NCBI RefSeq assembly: GCF_014397005.1
Contig: NZ_JACGWS010000001.1
Location: forward strand, 620,001-684,000
Direction of reading: 5' to 3'
Length of the DNA: 64,000 nt
Origin: Kordia aestuariivivens
GTDB taxonomy: Bacteria > Bacteroidota > Bacteroidia > Flavobacteriales > Flavobacteriaceae
Under the pieces are notes generated by a model. It saw only the letters and a list, made by a program, of their open reading frames with translations, was not told where the DNA came from and ran no database searches. Shown one piece after another: positions 8,812 through 61,762 of this stretch (positions are counted from its first letter, which is position 1; each line of letters opens with the position of its first letter). The position numbers and the translations under genes are program-made.

Positions 8812-8838
8812 TGTCACATCGAGCGCAGTCGAGATGCT
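8812..8838. repeat. Dispersed palindrome R3
   Basis: This is a copy of the R3 family, with core ATCGAGCGCAGTCGAGAT. It lies between valS and the CPBP protease gene (252-bp gap), which also holds two related words with TGTTCGCG..GCTCACTT at about 8657-8715. Other R3 copies are at 33357, 40802, 42035 and 63061. Confidence 0.85.
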
Positions 8839-37564: not shown

Positions 37565-38326
37565 TTATCTAATTTCGTTGATAAAATCTGAAATAGTATC
37601 AACTCCATGTTTTGTCAAATGTTTGATAAAAGCACTTCCAATAATGGCTCCTTTTGCTTTACTTGTTGCTTGCGTGAAAGTTTCACGATTGGAAATTCCA
37701 AAACCGACAACTTGCGGGTTTTTCAAATTCATATTGCCAATTCTATCAAAATAGTCAGATTGTGCATTGCCGAAACTACTTTTTGCGCCTGTGGTTCCAG
37801 CCGAACTTACCATATAAATAAATCCGTCGGAAATACTATCGATGAATCGAATGCGTTCTTCGGAAGTTTGCGGCGTAATCAAAAACACATTGATTAAACC
37901 GTATTTCTCAAAAATAGCTTGAAACTGCTCGTGATATACATTCACAGGCATATCAGGAATAATCAAACCATCAATTCCGACTTCTTTACATTTTGCGCAA
38001 AATGCTTCAATTCCGTATTGCATCATCGGATTCAAATAGCCCATAATAATTAGCGGAATAGAAACTGTTTTTCGAATGTCAGTTAATTGCTCAAACAAAA
38101 TTTCGCTCGTCATTCCGTTTTCCAACGCTTGCGTAGAACTTGCTTGAATCGTTGGTCCATCGGCTAAAGGATCACTAAACGGCAATCCAATTTCGACCAT
38201 ATCAACGCCGCTTTTTTCCAGATTTTGAAGTACGCCAACCGTATCATTCAAACTTGGATATCCTGCGGTAAAATAGATGGATAATAACTTTTTATCTTCT
38301 TGTAATTTTTGGTTTATTCTGTTCAT
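37565..38326 (-). CDS. trpA: Tryptophan synthase alpha subunit
   Basis: Cleaves indole-3-glycerol phosphate to indole, which passes to TrpB. The 253-aa product has the catalytic Glu and Asp in MVEIGLPFSDPLADGPTIQ and the phosphate-binding SSAGTTGAKSSFG and VVGFGISN segments. It is the last gene of the trp operon, separated from trpB by 384 bp that hold a GIY-YIG gene and two R1 hairpins. An R1 copy begins 11 bp upstream of its ATG. Confidence 0.97.
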   Translation of the reverse strand: MNRINQKLQEDKKLLSIYFTAGYPSLNDTVGVLQNLEKSGVDMVEIGLPFSDPLADGPTIQASSTQALENGMTSEILFEQLTDIRKTVSIPLIIMGYLNPMMQYGIEAFCAKCKEVGIDGLIIPDMPVNVYHEQFQAIFEKYGLINVFLITPQTSEERIRFIDSISDGFIYMVSSAGTTGAKSSFGNAQSDYFDRIGNMNLKNPQVVGFGISNRETFTQATSKAKGAIIGSAFIKHLTKHGVDTISDFINEIR

Positions 38327-38337
38327 TGTATTATTAT

Positions 38338-38710
38338 ATTTTTCATTCCCACGAAGGTGGGAATCTCACACAATTCTAAATAATTATATATACTCAGAAA
38401 GATCTTTCCAATCAGGGTTTAATCCGTTGATCAAATTTATCTTCCATTGTCGATTCCATTTCTTTAGTTGTCGTTCTCTTTTAATAGCATTATTTACATA
38501 CTTCGTAGTTTCAAAATATACGAGCTTGTGAACATTATATTTACCAGTAAACGTATCTTTTTCATTGTTTTTGTGTTGAATCAATCGCTTTTTCAATTGT
38601 TTAGACCATCCAACATACAAAACCGTATGATTTTTATTTGTCAGTATATATACATATTGAATATCCATTTGATAATTTTATAGATTCCTGCCTTCGCAGG
38701 AATGAAAAAT
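38338..38710 (-). mobile_element. Putative GIY-YIG/R1 mobile unit (element 1)
   Basis: 373 bp made of an R1 hairpin (38338-38366), a GIY-YIG gene (38384-38668) and a second R1 in inverse orientation (38682-38710). The two R1 copies are 29 bp each: outer ATTTTTCATTCC, inner GGAATCT, with loop GAAG. Their stems differ by compensatory changes (CCCAC/GTGGG against CCTGC/GCAGG). The right end abuts the trpB stop codon. Mobility is inferred. Confidence 0.6.
38384..38668 (-). CDS. GIY-YIG nuclease domain protein (in element 1)
   Basis: Small single-domain nuclease (94 aa). GIY-YIG signatures: YVYILTN (first motif), TVLYVGWSKQLKKRLIQHK (YVG and catalytic Arg region), KLVYFETTKYVNNAIKRERQLKKWNRQWKINLIN with the family Glu and the basic C-terminus. 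The usual second motif YIG is YVG. It belongs to the UPF0213/Slx1-like single-domain group. It interrupts the trp operon between trpB and trpA, and is flanked at 13-17 bp by inverted R1 hairpins. The role is inferred: cutting DNA, perhaps at such hairpins. Confidence 0.88.
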   Translation of the reverse strand: MDIQYVYILTNKNHTVLYVGWSKQLKKRLIQHKNNEKDTFTGKYNVHKLVYFETTKYVNNAIKRERQLKKWNRQWKINLINGLNPDWKDLSEYI

Positions 38711-39898
38711 TTATAACTTGAAGTATTCTATATACGTATTCAAATCCTTGTCACCACGACCCGATAAATTCAGCACAACAATTTCGTCTTCCTTGAATTT
38801 CCGTGTATCAAAAATTGCCAATGCATGCGAGGTTTCTATCGCTGGAATAATTCCTTCTAGTTGTGACAATTCGAGTCCAGCTGTCATTGCTTCATCATCT
38901 GTAATTGAAATAAATTCAGCACGATTGCTTGCATATAAATGTGCGTGCATGGGTCCAACACCAGGATAATCCAATCCTGCTGAAATAGAATACGGTTCTG
39001 TTATTTGTCCGTCTTTGGTTTGCATTAACAACGTTCTACTTCCGTGAATAATTCCATCTTCACCCAACACCGAAGTTGCGGCACTTTCACCAGAATGAAT
39101 TCCTTTTCCGGCTGCTTCCACGGCAATTAAATTCACGCGTTCATCATCTAAATATTGATAAAAAGCACCAGCTGCGTTACTTCCGCCACCAACACACGCA
39201 ATCACATGATCGGGATAGGAGCGACCTTCTTTTTCTTGTAACTGCCATTCTATTTCTTCTGAAATCACGGCTTGAAAACGAGCCACCATATCAGGATACG
39301 GATGCGGACCAACCACCGAACCAATAATATAATGTGTATCTACAGGATTGCTAATCCAATCGCGAATCGCTTCGTTTGTGGCATCTTTCAAGGTTCTACT
39401 TCCAGACAATGCAGCCCGAACTTCTGCGCCTAACATTTTCATGCGCGCTACATTTGGTGCTTGTCGCGCAATGTCAATTTCGCCCATATACACAATACAT
39501 TCCATGCCCATTAATGCACAAACTGTTGCTGTGGCAACACCGTGTTGTCCTGCGCCAGTTTCGGCAATAATTCTGGTTTTGCCCAAACGTTTTGCCATCA
39601 AAATTTGCCCGATGGTATTATTTACTTTGTGTGCACCAGTATGGTTTAAATCTTCACGCTTTAGGTAAATTTTGGTCTTGTACTTTTCAGACAAACGTTC
39701 CGCGTAAAATAACGGCGATGGTCGTCCGACGTAATCTTTTAGTAACTGTTTGAATTCTTTCTGAAAAGAATCTTCATACATAATATCCAAATACTTTTGA
39801 CGTAATTCTTCCACATTTGGATATAACATTTCTGGAATATACGCGCCGCCAAACGTGCCGTAATATCCTTTTTCGTTAACGTGATAGGTCTTTTTCAT
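38711..39898 (-). CDS. trpB: Tryptophan synthase beta subunit
   Basis: PLP enzyme condensing indole with serine. The 395-aa product has the PLP lysine in [10 protein letters not shown], the [10 protein letters not shown] loop, the phosphate-binding [12 protein letters not shown] and the C-terminal [10 protein letters not shown]. Length and motifs fit TrpB1. The stop codon at 38711 directly adjoins an R1 hairpin end of element 1. A 496-bp gap with several repeats and a GIY-YIG gene separates it from trpF. Confidence 0.97.
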
Positions 39899-39906
39899 AG
39901 TCTTCT

Positions 39907-39928
39907 ATTCCCGCGTAGGCGGGAATCT
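39907..39928. repeat. R1 hairpin between trpB and trpF
   Basis: The stem ATTCCCGC / GCGGGAAT with a TAGG-type loop starts 8 bp before the trpB ATG on the message (minus strand). It is a copy of the R1 family. Confidence 0.85.
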
Positions 39929-39956
39929 ATTTAAGTTGCACTTTTTTTATAATTTT

Positions 39957-40036
39957 CGTTAAACTGAGTTTGATTCAGTTTCATATACTCATTTTAAAAC
40001 TTACGAGTGAGATGCTGAATCAAGTTCAGCATGACG
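39957..40036. repeat. Inverted pair of R2 palindromes without a gene (REPIN-like)
   Basis: Two R2 copies face each other: 39957-39987 (core AACTGAGTTTGATTCAGTT) and the inverse copy 40007-40036 (TGCTGAATCAAGTTCAGCA). The 19-bp spacer has no gene. Geometry is that of element 2 with the nuclease gene removed. Confidence 0.8.
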
Positions 40037-40050
40037 CCCTATTTTCTTTT

Positions 40051-40405
40051 CGTCAAACTGAACTTGATTCAGTTTCACATAATCTTGGACTTATAATTCC
40101 AAAGTTTCCATAGTTGGATTCAATTCTTTTATTAAATCAATTTTCCAGCTTCTTTGCCAATTTTTTAATTGTTTTTCTCTTGCTATCGCTTGATTGATGT
40201 CAAGAAATTTTTCGTAATAAACTAAATCGGTTAAGTTATATCTTTTAGTAAACTCAGAACCTTTTCCAGAAGCATGTTCAAACATTCTATTTTTTAAACT
40301 AGAGGTTACCCCAATATAAAAAGTAGTTCTGTATTTATTTGTCATTATATAAACATAACTTTCTTTCATTTCTTAATGTGATGCTGAATCAAGTTCAGCA
40401 TGACG
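40051..40405 (-). mobile_element. Putative GIY-YIG/R2 mobile unit (element 2)
   Basis: 355 bp made of an R2 palindrome (40051-40082), a GIY-YIG gene (40091-40369) and a second, inverted R2 (40374-40405). Both copies are 32 bp, start with CGTCA at the outside and end TCACAT.A inside. Stems AACTGAA/TTCAGTT and TGCTGAA/TTCAGCA differ by paired changes. The right copy supplies the trpF stop codon. Mobility is inferred. Confidence 0.6.
40091..40369 (-). CDS. GIY-YIG nuclease domain protein (in element 2)
   Basis: Single-domain GIY-YIG protein (92 aa): YVYIMTN (first motif), TTFYIGVTSSLKNRMFEHASGKGSEFTKRYN (YIG, catalytic Arg region), DLVYYEKFLDINQAIAREKQLKNWQRSWKIDLI with the family Glu. All expected residues are present. 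It is a paralogue of the protein in element 1 but clearly diverged. It lies between trpF and trpB on the operon strand and is bracketed at 4-8 bp by inverted R2 palindromes. A nuclease role is inferred from the fold. Confidence 0.9.
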   Translation of the reverse strand: MKESYVYIMTNKYRTTFYIGVTSSLKNRMFEHASGKGSEFTKRYNLTDLVYYEKFLDINQAIAREKQLKNWQRSWKIDLIKELNPTMETLEL

Positions 40406-41102
40406 TTGTAATTTTATTTTTAAATTCTTTCAATTTCTCAACATCTTTCAATCCAGGTACAATTTCAAACTTACTATTAATGTCTAACGCATGGCAATAG
40501 TTTGAAGCGCTACTGTTCAGAAAAGCTTCAAGTTTTGGAATCGTTTCCAAACCTATTCCGCCACTTAAAAAGAAAGGTTTTTTAGACGGATAATTTTCCA
40601 ACACTTTCCAATCAAACGTAACTCCATTTCCGCCAGGTAATTTTCCTTTGGTGTCAAACAAAAAATAATCCACAGCAGCTTCATACGGTTTCAAAACCGT
40701 AAAATCAAATTCGTCTTTTATAGAAAATACTTTGATGATTTCAATATGCGCAACGTGCGTATTGAAATCATCATGCTGAACTTGATTCAGTATCTCATCA
40801 CGAGCATCTCGACTGCGCTCGATGTGACATATTTTTTTCAATTCAGCACAAAACTCAACACTTTCACTTCCATGTAATTGTATTGCTTGCAAATCGTGTA
40901 ATTTTATTTTTTTAAAGATATCTTCTATCGAAGCATTCACAAAAACTCCCGTTCTTTTTATGCTTTTCGGAATTTCTGGAATACTTGTATCAAAAAAACG
41001 TGATGATTTTTTATAGAATATAAAACCCAAGTAATCTGGCTGCAATTCGCTAATTGCTGTCATATTATCTTCGTATTTCATTCCGCATATTTTGAGCTTC
41101 AT
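40395..41102 (-). CDS. trpF: Phosphoribosylanthranilate isomerase, with repeat-derived insert
   Basis: TIM-barrel enzyme of tryptophan synthesis (235 aa from ATG 41102; the frame opens with GTG 41105). KICGMKYEDN carries the catalytic Cys, AIQLHGSESVEFC and the LSGGIGLETIP phosphate site follow; the catalytic Asp is in YFLFDTKG. Residues 92-113 (CHIERSRDARDEILNQVQHD) come from an R3 plus an R2 repeat inserted in frame between LKKI and IEIIKVF, probably a surface loop. The last residues and TGA stop are also R2 sequence (element 2). Barrel motifs remain intact, so it is probably functional. Confidence 0.93.
   Translation of the reverse strand: MKLKICGMKYEDNMTAISELQPDYLGFIFYKKSSRFFDTSIPEIPKSIKRTGVFVNASIEDIFKKIKLHDLQAIQLHGSESVEFCAELKKICHIERSRDARDEILNQVQHDDFNTHVAHIEIIKVFSIKDEFDFTVLKPYEAAVDYFLFDTKGKLPGGNGVTFDWKVLENYPSKKPFFLSGGIGLETIPKLEAFLNSSASNYCHALDINSKFEIVPGLKDVEKLKEFKNKITTSC
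40766..40829. repeat. R2 + R3 repeats inside trpF
   Basis: R2 (about 40768-40798, core TGCTGAACTTGATTCAGTA) and R3 (40802-40829, core CTCGACTGCGCTCGAT) occupy 64 bp of the trpF frame and encode about 21 residues without a stop. Confidence 0.92.
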
Positions 41103-41120
41103 CACAACACTTGTTTTTGT

Positions 41121-41142
41121 GTTCCCACGAAAGTGGGAATCT
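41121..41142. repeat. R1 hairpin between trpC and trpF
   Basis: The stem TTCCCAC / GTGGGAA with loop GAAA fills the 38-bp gap. Its right end, AATCTA, contains the complement of the trpC stop codon (CTA at 41141-41143). Confidence 0.85.
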
Positions 41143-41926
41143 ATTTCTTCAATTCATTTATAAACGCCAACGCACTTCCACCGGGATTTTCCGTTTTCAT
41201 AAAATTTTCACCAATTAAAAAACCTTGATAACCAAAAGGTTTCAGTTCTTTAATCGCAGCTACCGAACTAATTCCACTTTCTGAAACTTTTACAAAGTCA
41301 GTTGGAATATGATTTGACAATTCTTTACTAATGTCTGTGCTGACTTCAAAGGTTTTTAAATTGCGATTGTTTACGCCTAACATATCTAACGATGGCATGA
41401 TGGATTTCTGCAATTCTTCTAAATTATGAACTTCCAACAATACATCTAAACCTAAACTTTTAGCAACTTCCGATAACGATTTAATTTCGTTTCTCGTCAA
41501 TACTGCTGCGATGAGCAAAATAACATCTGCGCCATGTGCTTTGGCTTCTAAGATTTGATATTCATCTACGATAAATTCTTTTCGCAATATTGGAAATTGT
41601 ACGCTCGCTCTTGCTAATAATACATCATCTAACGAACCGCCAAAGTATTTTCCATCTGTCAAAACAGACATTCCACAAACGCCCGCATGCTCATAACCTT
41701 GTGCTACATCTTGAACGCTTGCACTTTGATTGATGACTGCTTTTGAAGGTGAACGCCTTTTAAATTCAGCAATAATTCCCGTTGTACTTTCGCGCAAAGC
41801 GGTTGCTAAAGAAGAAGTTTTACGACCAAATAATACCGAATTTTCTAATTGCGATACTGGAATGATACTTTTTTTAAGTGCGACTTCTTTGTATTTGTCT
41901 GCGATGATTTTATCTAAAATGGTCAT
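41141..41926 (-). CDS. trpC: Indole-3-glycerol-phosphate synthase
   Basis: Closes the indole ring from CdRP. From ATG 41926 (MTILDKIIADKYKEVALKK) the product has 261 aa; an in-frame ATG four codons upstream is less likely. Motifs: AEFKRRSPSKAVIN with the catalytic Glu and Lys, YEHAGVCGMSVLTDGKYFGG, PILRKEFIVDEYQI, GADVILLIAAVL, GVNNRNLKTFEV and SESGISS. Its stop codon is formed at the edge of an R1 hairpin. The 153-bp gap to trpD holds three more R1 units. Confidence 0.96.
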   Translation of the reverse strand: MTILDKIIADKYKEVALKKSIIPVSQLENSVLFGRKTSSLATALRESTTGIIAEFKRRSPSKAVINQSASVQDVAQGYEHAGVCGMSVLTDGKYFGGSLDDVLLARASVQFPILRKEFIVDEYQILEAKAHGADVILLIAAVLTRNEIKSLSEVAKSLGLDVLLEVHNLEELQKSIMPSLDMLGVNNRNLKTFEVSTDISKELSNHIPTDFVKVSESGISSVAAIKELKPFGYQGFLIGENFMKTENPGGSALAFINELKK

Positions 41927-41943
41927 AAAAGTTTTCAATTTTT

Positions 41944-41995
41944 ATTCCCGCGAAGGCGGGAAACTCTTTAATCATTCCCGTGCAAACGGGAACCT
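41944..41995. repeat. Two R1 hairpins between trpD and trpC
   Basis: Direct copies at 41944-41965 (ATTCCCGC/GCGGGAAA) and 41974-41995 (ATTCCCGT/ACGGGAAC) are separated by 8 bp. Confidence 0.85.
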
Positions 41996-60667: not shown

Positions 60668-61762
60668 ATGAAAAACATCAAATCCCACTTTACGTTTCTG
60701 AAAGCAGAACGAAGTGGGATTTTGTGTATAATATTCCTAATCTTTATGGTACAAGGAATCTACTTTTACACAAATCCCACACAAACACCTCAACTATTTG
60801 CGGACGCAGAAGTTGCGATCTATCAACAACACATAGATTCGCTCAAACTGCTTGCGATTGAGGAACGAAAACCGAAAATTTTCCCGTTCAATCCAAACTT
60901 TATTTCCGATTACAAAGGTTTTACCTTAGGAATGTCTACTAAAGAAATTGATCGTTTACACAAATTTAGAGCGACCAATAAATATGTAAATTCAGCCAAG
61001 GAATTTCAAACGGTCACAAAGGTTTCAGATTCATTACTCAGCATCTTGCAACCGCATTTTAAATTCCCCGAATGGGTGACCAACAAAAAGAAGAAAAAGT
61101 GGGCGTATGGAAAAAAGGAGGAAGTTATTCTAAAAAAGATCGATCTCAACAAAGCAACGATTGAAGAGCTCCGAAAAGTATACGGAATTGGTGAAAAACT
61201 CTCAGCGCGAATCGTAAACTACCGAGCGAAATTGGGCGGATTTGTCACGGAATCTCAATTAGAAAATGTATATGGGCTAAAGCCAGAAGTAATACAAAAA
61301 GTTTGGAAACGTTTCTACCTAGGAAAGTCAAATACATACGAGAAAGCAGACGAAGTTGCGCTGGAAAAGATCGATTTGAACAAAGCAACGATTGAAGAAC
61401 TCCGAAAAGTATACGGAATCGGCGAAAAACTTTCTGAACGAATTGTAAAATACAGAACAAAAATTGGCGGATTTGTGATAGAATCTCAATTAGAAGATGT
61501 CTATGGCTTAAAGCCAGAAGTAGTACAGAACGTTTGGAAACGTTTCTATATAGAAAAACCAGCGATCGTTAAAGTGAATCTCAATACGTGTTCACTGGAA
61601 GAATTACTAAAAATTCCATACATAGACTATGAATTGGCAGACGAAATTATCAACCAACGAATTCTCAGAGAAGGATTCAAAACTTTTGAAGATTTGGCAA
61701 AAATTCGAAACTTTCCAACCAAGAAAATCAAGATAATTGAATTATATTTGTCAATTGAATAG
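60668..61762 (+). CDS. Helix-hairpin-helix (ComEA-like) protein with duplicated repeat
   Basis: Protein of 364 aa with one transmembrane helix (residues 17-35) and an exported C-terminus. It has three ComEA-type HhH units: 157-220 (IDLNKATIEELRKVYGIGEKLSARIV), 234-297 (an almost identical copy) and 302-364 (VNLNTCSLEELLKIPYIDYELADEII). The first two come from a 231-bp tandem duplication. ComEA binds DNA during uptake; DNA binding is inferred here. It ends 22 bp before the acyl-CoA dehydrogenase start. Confidence 0.9.
   Translation: MKNIKSHFTFLKAERSGILCIIFLIFMVQGIYFYTNPTQTPQLFADAEVAIYQQHIDSLKLLAIEERKPKIFPFNPNFISDYKGFTLGMSTKEIDRLHKFRATNKYVNSAKEFQTVTKVSDSLLSILQPHFKFPEWVTNKKKKKWAYGKKEEVILKKIDLNKATIEELRKVYGIGEKLSARIVNYRAKLGGFVTESQLENVYGLKPEVIQKVWKRFYLGKSNTYEKADEVALEKIDLNKATIEELRKVYGIGEKLSERIVKYRTKIGGFVIESQLEDVYGLKPEVVQNVWKRFYIEKPAIVKVNLNTCSLEELLKIPYIDYELADEIINQRILREGFKTFEDLAKIRNFPTKKIKIIELYLSIE

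Follow-up and report, generated by a model that had tools for sequence, protein, structure and literature searches.

Small GIY-YIG nuclease genes of the kind referred to here as type a are associated with hairpin repeats, which bracket them tightly, in a set orientation and with a repeat family of their own, in bacteria of many phyla. Such genes lie in the trp operon of the window, by which we mean the whole 64,000-nucleotide stretch of DNA analysed here. We think that the cassette is probably an autonomous element of the CGTC-tagged REP family, a GIY-YIG counterpart of RAYT/REPIN in which the enzyme moves the repeats, and this is the most economical reading.

The first cassette agrees with the original prediction in most respects. 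A 94-aa GIY-YIG gene (gene 1, 38384-38668, minus strand) lies between trpA (37565-38326) and trpB (38711-39898), as borne out by the ORF call, the Pfam match (PF01541, E 1.8e-14) and the NCBIfam names of the trp genes, and it consists of a bare GIY-YIG domain with nothing attached. An R1 hairpin that reads ATTCCTGC-GAAG-GCAGGAAT in the orientation of the gene stands 15 bp upstream of the start codon (38684-38703, minus strand), and a second one stands 19 bp downstream of the ORF (38345-38364, plus strand). As had been claimed, the pair is inverted, since the loops read GAAG and CTTC; the distances of 17 and 13 bp given previously are 19 and 15 bp from core to ORF because flanking bases had been placed inside the repeat. 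The cores, ATTCCCACGAAGGTGGGAAT downstream and ATTCCTGCCTTCGCAGGAAT upstream, have a stem of 8 bp and a loop of 4, the paired stem changes between them are as predicted, and the cassette does measure 373 bp (38338-38710). At the tag position both hairpins read TTTC, the CGTC/TGTC tag being absent. The pattern TTCCYRCNNNNGYRGGAA, allowing at most one mismatch, occurs 135 times in the 5.46 Mb genome, about once per 40 kb, whereas a reversed-pattern control gives 2 copies, and bracketing by R1 is therefore beyond chance. GTC was present at the tag in 2 of the 15 R1 copies examined.

A further cassette, which was absent from the original prediction, lies 1.4 kb from gene 1. Its gene (gene 2, 92 aa, 40091-40369, minus strand), called by ORF and Pfam between trpB and trpF, is 46% identical to gene 1 and matches PF01541 with E 1.2e-15. 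Upstream of it is the R2 hairpin ATGCTGAA-CTTGA-TTCAGCAT (40381-40405, minus strand; stem 8, loop 5) with an outward CGTC tag at 40402-40405, and downstream the R2-type hairpin AAACTGAA-CTTGA-TTCAGTTT (40051-40075, plus strand) with an outward CGTC tag at 40051-40054, so that 40051-40405 forms a complete tags-outside cassette of 355 bp with CGTC intact on both outer sides. Outside this cassette another R2 hairpin with a CGTC tag (40012-40036, minus strand) and an R2-type hairpin, AAACTGAGTTTGATTCAGTTT, with CGTT at the tag position (39961-39981, plus strand) make up a tags-outside doublet without a gene. R1 hairpins are also found on the plus strand upstream of trpB (39907-39926), between trpF and trpC (41122-41139) and beyond trpC (41945-41962), and the trpB-upstream junction has similar hairpins in genomes G003, G006 and G008. 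Hairpin tails in the window read CTC and CTA (the R1 pair) or CAC, and no CCA tail was found there. The count of R2 in its own genome, 4 against 4 in the control with an ill-fitting pattern, carries no information. An R2-like repeat at 40770-40801 lies inside the trpF ORF (40395-41105), where the frame stays open and reads ...ERSRDARDEILNQVQHDD...; it is an in-frame repeat insertion of the sort described for the Rickettsia RPEs in the part of PMC3733652 drawn on here. Elsewhere in the window, 61118-61557 holds two direct repeats of 209 nt, 83% identical and 231 nt apart from start to start.

By domain and fold the gene products belong to the GIY-YIG nuclease superfamily, with nuclease activity predicted. 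The AlphaFold2 model of the gene 1 protein (mean pLDDT 94.6) has a single predicted domain that fills 93 residues; its nearest family is UPF0213 (BH0048, 1zg2; profile E 7.4e-8, Foldseek E 2.4e-4), with weaker fold matches to Slx1 (E 0.045) and UvrC (E 0.058), both above 0.001. Six residues, Y6, Y17, G19, R27, E64 and N83 (numbered by row A3, whose first position is residue 2), do not vary among 54 sequences, and all but G19 are what we take to be the catalytic Tyr, Tyr, Arg, Glu and Asn of GIY-YIG enzymes. No HUH Y1 (IS200/IS605-like) transposase family was among the Pfam and NCBIfam matches, the best of which was PF01541; the predicted fold matches GIY-YIG structures, and no relatives were found in phage records. 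Neither a separate DNA-binding domain nor the intron or intein setting of a homing endonuclease is seen here: the single domain spans the protein and the location is intergenic. Of the six small GIY-YIG genes in the genome, both window genes, L001 and L003 are of type a, and L002 and L005 of type b.

A scan of a genome collection gave at least 519 confirmed relatives, and the best 80 served as a first sample. Their record titles include Bacteroidota, Omnitrophota, Nitrospirae, Atribacteria, Patescibacteria, Chloroflexota, Cloacimonadota, Spirochaetes and Pseudomonadota, and about 18 of the 80 loci are trp orthologues that are not independent. Many of the ORFs in these best 80 lie between a left GTC-ATTCC...GGAAT-CCA hairpin and its mirror, TGG-ATTCC...GGAAT-GAC. 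Hairpins occurred within 100 bp on both sides of 40 of the 78 GIY-YIG loci that could be counted (short flanks removed the rest), against 33 of 1071 other, mechanically called ORFs and 5 of 281 small ORFs; on either side, 244 of the 1071 other ORFs of the same loci had one. In the 100 bp next to the gene there were 7.45 hairpins per kb, and at a distance of 1-9 kb 0.27-0.52 per kb. The nearest GTC-tagged hairpin within 120 bp pointed outward at 32 loci and inward at 4 on the left, and outward at 34 and inward at 5 on the right, the remainder of the best 80 having none, and both pointed outward at 24 of the 80; at any distance, the nearest tagged hairpins on either side had their tags outside in 41 of 63 pairs. 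An inverted-repeat score, defined as the ungapped match of the left 200 bp to the reverse complement of the right 200 bp, reached the cut-off of 13 in 37 of 76 loci of these best 80 (the others again having short flanks), in 12 of 76 with swapped partners and in 19 of 1015 control ORFs. Sixteen loci were hairpin-free by the 100-bp count; by eye, seven of them (L075, L078, L096, L098, L120, L121 and L133) have a GTCATTGCGAG-/GTCATTCTGAG-like tagged repeat, which is less clear in L077, and in the rest the hairpins have a longer loop, are imperfect or lie further away. By strict criteria 81 of 189 loci had no outward-tagged hairpin on either side, partly because of eroded tags and other hairpin types.

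The second sample consisted of 299 Pseudomonadota genomes drawn evenly, 72 of which carried a type-a gene at E 1e-18 or better, with up to 5 copies per genome. From the 122 matches 90 were taken (the 30 best and 60 more), 89 were placed and 87, including some orthologous sites, were scored. An inverted repeat joined the flanks in 58 of these 87 loci, compared with 5 of 87 for swapped partners and 2 of 97 control ORFs; scores in direct orientation were also raised (34 of 87), as palindromes would give. The enrichment of inverted hairpins around GIY-YIG genes relative to other ORFs for which a search had been suggested is thus present, with the tags outward, and chance placement is rejected (40/78 against 33/1071; 58/87 against 2/97). 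The gene also co-occurs with REPs genome-wide: the count of GTCATNCCCGN{3,11}CGGGNAT over these 299 genomes reached 10 in 34 of the 72 that carry the gene and in 21 of the 227 that lack it (Fisher odds ratio 8.8, p 1.8e-11, kinship ignored), and 35 of the 72 had fewer than 5 REPs of the counted pattern.

Enzyme and repeat are matched. In the 61 of 189 loci that had both cores, left and right cores differed by a mean Hamming distance of 0.79, compared with 2.11 after shuffling (lowest of 500 shuffles 1.67). On a protein tree of 112 of the 189 loci, which leaves out 17 rows with a stop in the translation and 60 with flanks matching neither expression, the GTCATTGCGAG-like repeat class needed 5 changes against a shuffled mean of 16.1, with none of 500 shuffles as low. 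One locus, L104, was labelled Q by the expression although its hairpin looks CTGAAC-like; reversing its label gave 4 changes, against a shuffled mean of 15.3 and a lowest value of 13 in 500. The tree has few columns, and many of its forks are open. One clade (SH-aLRT support 96) joins two Nitrospirae to a deltaproteobacterium, a gammaproteobacterium and a spirochaete; every member has the GTCATTGCGAG-like class, and on this tree host relatedness would hardly explain such sharing across phyla. Gene 2 groups (support 84) with the genus copy L049, with L040 and with L104 of Atribacteria, all beside CTGAAC/CTGAGC-type hairpins.

Type b genes were considered as a same-fold negative control and dropped, since both of their groups adjoin repeats themselves. 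Group b1, from the window genus (L002, L041-L043, L050 and L051), lies beside GTCA[GC]TTCGAGCGCAGTCGAGA-like repeats, similar ones occurring in the window at 8812, 33357 and 63061, and group b2 (L044, L045, L052 and L053) adjoins CTTCGAGNNCCTCAG-like repeats, which form near-tandem arrays in L052 and L053. Ten of the 11 type b loci had two usable flanks, and 5 of the 10 scored at least 13 for an inverted repeat.

The trp unit is old. Among 11 genomes of the genus the trpB-trpA junction holds the cassette in five (G000, G001, G002, G003 and G005), something else in four, and is empty in G007 (a gap of 5 bp) and G010 (11 bp). The order trpB-GIY-trpA also recurs in Flavivirga, Tamlana, Seonamhaeicola, Aquimarina, Leeuwenhoekiella and others, and this conservation across Flavobacteriaceae genera rules out a recent insertion. 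We collected 21 cassettes after trpB, that of the window included; trpA follows in 20, and in L067 the contig ends first. In a scan run without a shuffled control, a stem-loop paired at 6 or more of its 8 positions lay upstream in 21 of 21 (all 8 pairs in 19) and downstream in 18 of 21 (all 8 pairs in 15), and two-sided changes affected, among others, pairs 4 and 6 upstream and pairs 6 and 7 downstream. The same-locus orthologues thus carry hairpins, and the view that the hairpin itself is maintained holds for the gene 1 pair. Their retention fits selection, or conversion by other repeats; copies for a comparison of the trp hairpins with the repeat type of each genome numbered 11, 6 and 0 in 299 kb, which is too few. 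The trp operon (37565-41938; L134-L143) gathers inserts in the genus: that of G003 has three GIY-YIG genes, and in G002 and G009 an additional 550 bp or so separates trpF from trpB.

Two other fixed loci were read for presence, absence and decay: murC-murB (names by NCBIfam) in the genus of G260, with 117 genomes searched, and sufB-sufC in the genus of G103, with 100 genomes searched. At each, 50 junctions were read, 30 of them as the best matches and 20 selected for having a match in two parts, and because of that choice the following counts are not frequencies. The chosen murC-murB junctions comprised 27 without insert, 8 with a full-length cassette, 5 with remnants and 10 with another insert; the chosen sufB-sufC junctions comprised 29 without a cassette, 11 with full-length copies judged by their ends and length, 5 shortened ones with recognisable REPs, 1 with another ORF and the right REP, and 4 with something else. 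The right REP was degraded in three of the 5 shortened sufB-sufC cassettes. At murC-murB, the two REPs of L280 still enclose the end of the gene, and at least one copy, L269, has an in-frame stop by eye. The other insert (L264-L267, L272-L275, L278 and L279) replaces the murC-murB cassette and carries CCCCTCTCCC/GGGAGAGGGG-type hairpins. In both clades inheritance of the cassettes looks vertical, and cassette-free sites have different spacers from filled ones. No target duplication and no fresh insertion were found at the junctions read, where the insertions are old, and no empty site was found for the L181 cassette, the left flank of which is not conserved. Doublets with the inner ends of a cassette were rare: of the 117 genomes of the G260 genus, 6 had one apiece. 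The order sufB-GIY-sufC occurs also in Azospirillum lipoferum, there between REP doublets.

Taken as a probable autonomous element, the unit has the layout tag, hairpin, GIY-YIG gene, hairpin, tag, the tags lying at the outer ends. The nuclease would recognise the tagged hairpin of its own family when extruded or single-stranded and would nick at or near the tag at both ends, after which repair or replication could place copies, either of the whole unit or of just the tagged hairpins, between genes. Internal deletion of the gene would leave REP doublets, which might still be moved in trans. Substrate recognition, the cut site, the copying step and action in trans are what we infer for this scheme. 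GIY-YIG nucleases are not known to form the covalent intermediate of HUH transposases, and this weighs against the scheme, as do the lack of target duplications and fresh insertions at the junctions read, the apparently vertical inheritance there, the loci with no outward-tagged hairpin (81 of 189), the genomes in which gene and REPs do not go together, the rarity of cassette-end doublets and the raised direct-orientation scores. The original description of the trp unit as a minimal mobile unit holds for its structure, repeat-nuclease-repeat being general; mobilisation itself we infer, and the trp unit is not recent. The analogy to RAYT/REPIN is strengthened by the genome-wide co-occurrence with REPs and by the matching of protein clade to repeat class.

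The main rival reading, which we hold to be unlikely, puts the doublets first: a GIY-YIG homing endonuclease would cut within them and enter the spacer by recombination between the REPs, which the nuclease itself would not move. Such homing accounts for the absent target duplication and for the position of the gene inside a tags-outside pair, and tags-outside doublets are indeed the commonest adjacent hairpin pairs away from the gene (67 of 127); yet the cassette-free junctions described above (27 and 29 of 50 in the chosen sets) are mostly without a REP doublet, and several of the doublets found there still hold remnants of the gene (L280, L282, L356 and L362). The protein of L201 weakly matches PHROG homing endonucleases, as neither window protein does, and there is a below-cutoff NCBIfam match to a group I intron endonuclease.

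It is more doubtful that the gene encodes a host structure-specific nuclease which trims or resolves REP hairpins and is kept where REPs are many, nearby REPs being tolerated or regulatory. Such a role would not lead one to expect that the two borders carry a matched inverted pair, that forms with an internal deletion exist, that a genome may have as many as 5 copies or that clades from different phyla share a repeat class. In its favour, the weaker fold matches, Slx1 and UvrC, act on branched or damaged DNA, the trp copy has been conserved within Flavobacteriaceae, and gene and REPs co-occur. That ordinary REPs or terminators happen to fill intergenic gaps around a dispensable gene is highly improbable: REPs do favour intergenic places and other ORFs have nearby hairpins too (244 of 1071 on either side), but hairpins on both flanks are far commoner at the GIY-YIG genes than at other ORFs, small ones included (5 of 281), swapping the partners abolishes the match (5 of 87), and tag orientation is strongly one-way.

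The mobile-element reading offers a strong candidate for the missing enzyme that spreads CGTC-REPs. These repeats, which include dRS3 of Neisseria and RPE-4/6 of Rickettsia, are apparently without a dedicated transposase, no associated enzyme having been found according to the part of Di Nocera et al. (2013, PMC3733652) drawn on here. Their spreader was left open there, and the GIY-YIG gene is an assayable candidate with cognate substrates. The same part names A. lipoferum, N. aromaticivorans, S. meliloti and Neisseria as CGTC-REP species; tblastn found relatives of the GIY-YIG protein in records of all four, by eye with tagged or near-tagged hairpins alongside. In Neisseria gonorrhoeae NZ_CP119140.1 (L286) a relative that has no feature in the gene table is flanked on each side by a dRS3-like hairpin whose tag points inward. 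No clear pair was seen by eye in a Rhizobium tumorigenes record.

On a broader reading, for and against which we find the balance about even, these are bacteria-wide minimal mobile elements in which a nuclease of about 95 aa sits between outward-tagged hairpins; each nuclease subclade would have a REP family to itself (CGTC-REPs and, in this genus, the GTCA[GC]TTCGAGCGCAGTCGAGA and CTTCGAGNNCCTCAG repeats that adjoin further GIY-YIG groups), and the nuclease would be the missing mobiliser of CGTC-REPs, working without transposase chemistry. If the enzyme does move these repeats, two unrelated enzyme types, HUH and GIY-YIG, spread bacterial repeat families and have reached the same architecture, and many genes that bear the annotation 'GIY-YIG nuclease family protein' or 'excinuclease ABC subunit C' may belong to mobile elements. 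No earlier report of a link between GIY-YIG and REPs was found in the open-access literature searched; the parts drawn on of PMC12306157, PMC6006769, PMC9465073 and PMC5082802 do not link the two.

Among known systems, UPF0213 (BH0048, 1zg2), Slx1 and the N-terminal domain of UvrC share the fold. Free-standing GIY-YIG homing endonucleases of the I-TevI type have the GIY-YIG catalytic domain and a selfish-looking insertion in common with the cassettes, which differ in having no extra DNA-binding domain, matched hairpin brackets and many unrelated sites. The CGTC-REPs, described in the part of PMC3733652 drawn on here as stems of 8-9 bp starting with AT, with a loop of 4-5 and a CGTC/TGTC tag, mostly in tags-outside (HH) dimers, resemble the repeats studied here in stem, loop and the many dispersed copies (135 for R1), as well as in the CGTC/TGTC tag and CCA tail of many relatives, the CGTC tag being carried by the gene 2 cassette too; the differences are that a gene lies between two REPs here and that the R1 pair of the window is untagged, with CTC/CTA tails. 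The REPtron/RAYT system (TnpA-REP, with GTAG-tagged REPs and REPINs) likewise has tagged palindromes bracketing the enzyme gene, tags-outside dimers, dispersed copies without a gene and an enzyme that matches the repeat type, TnpA-REP and REP co-evolving according to the part of PMC8266576 drawn on here. The cassettes described here differ from it in encoding a GIY-YIG domain of 92-94 aa, predicted to cleave the repeat, rather than an HUH Y1 transposase, and in having tags that read CGTC/TGTC, or are eroded, in place of GTAG.
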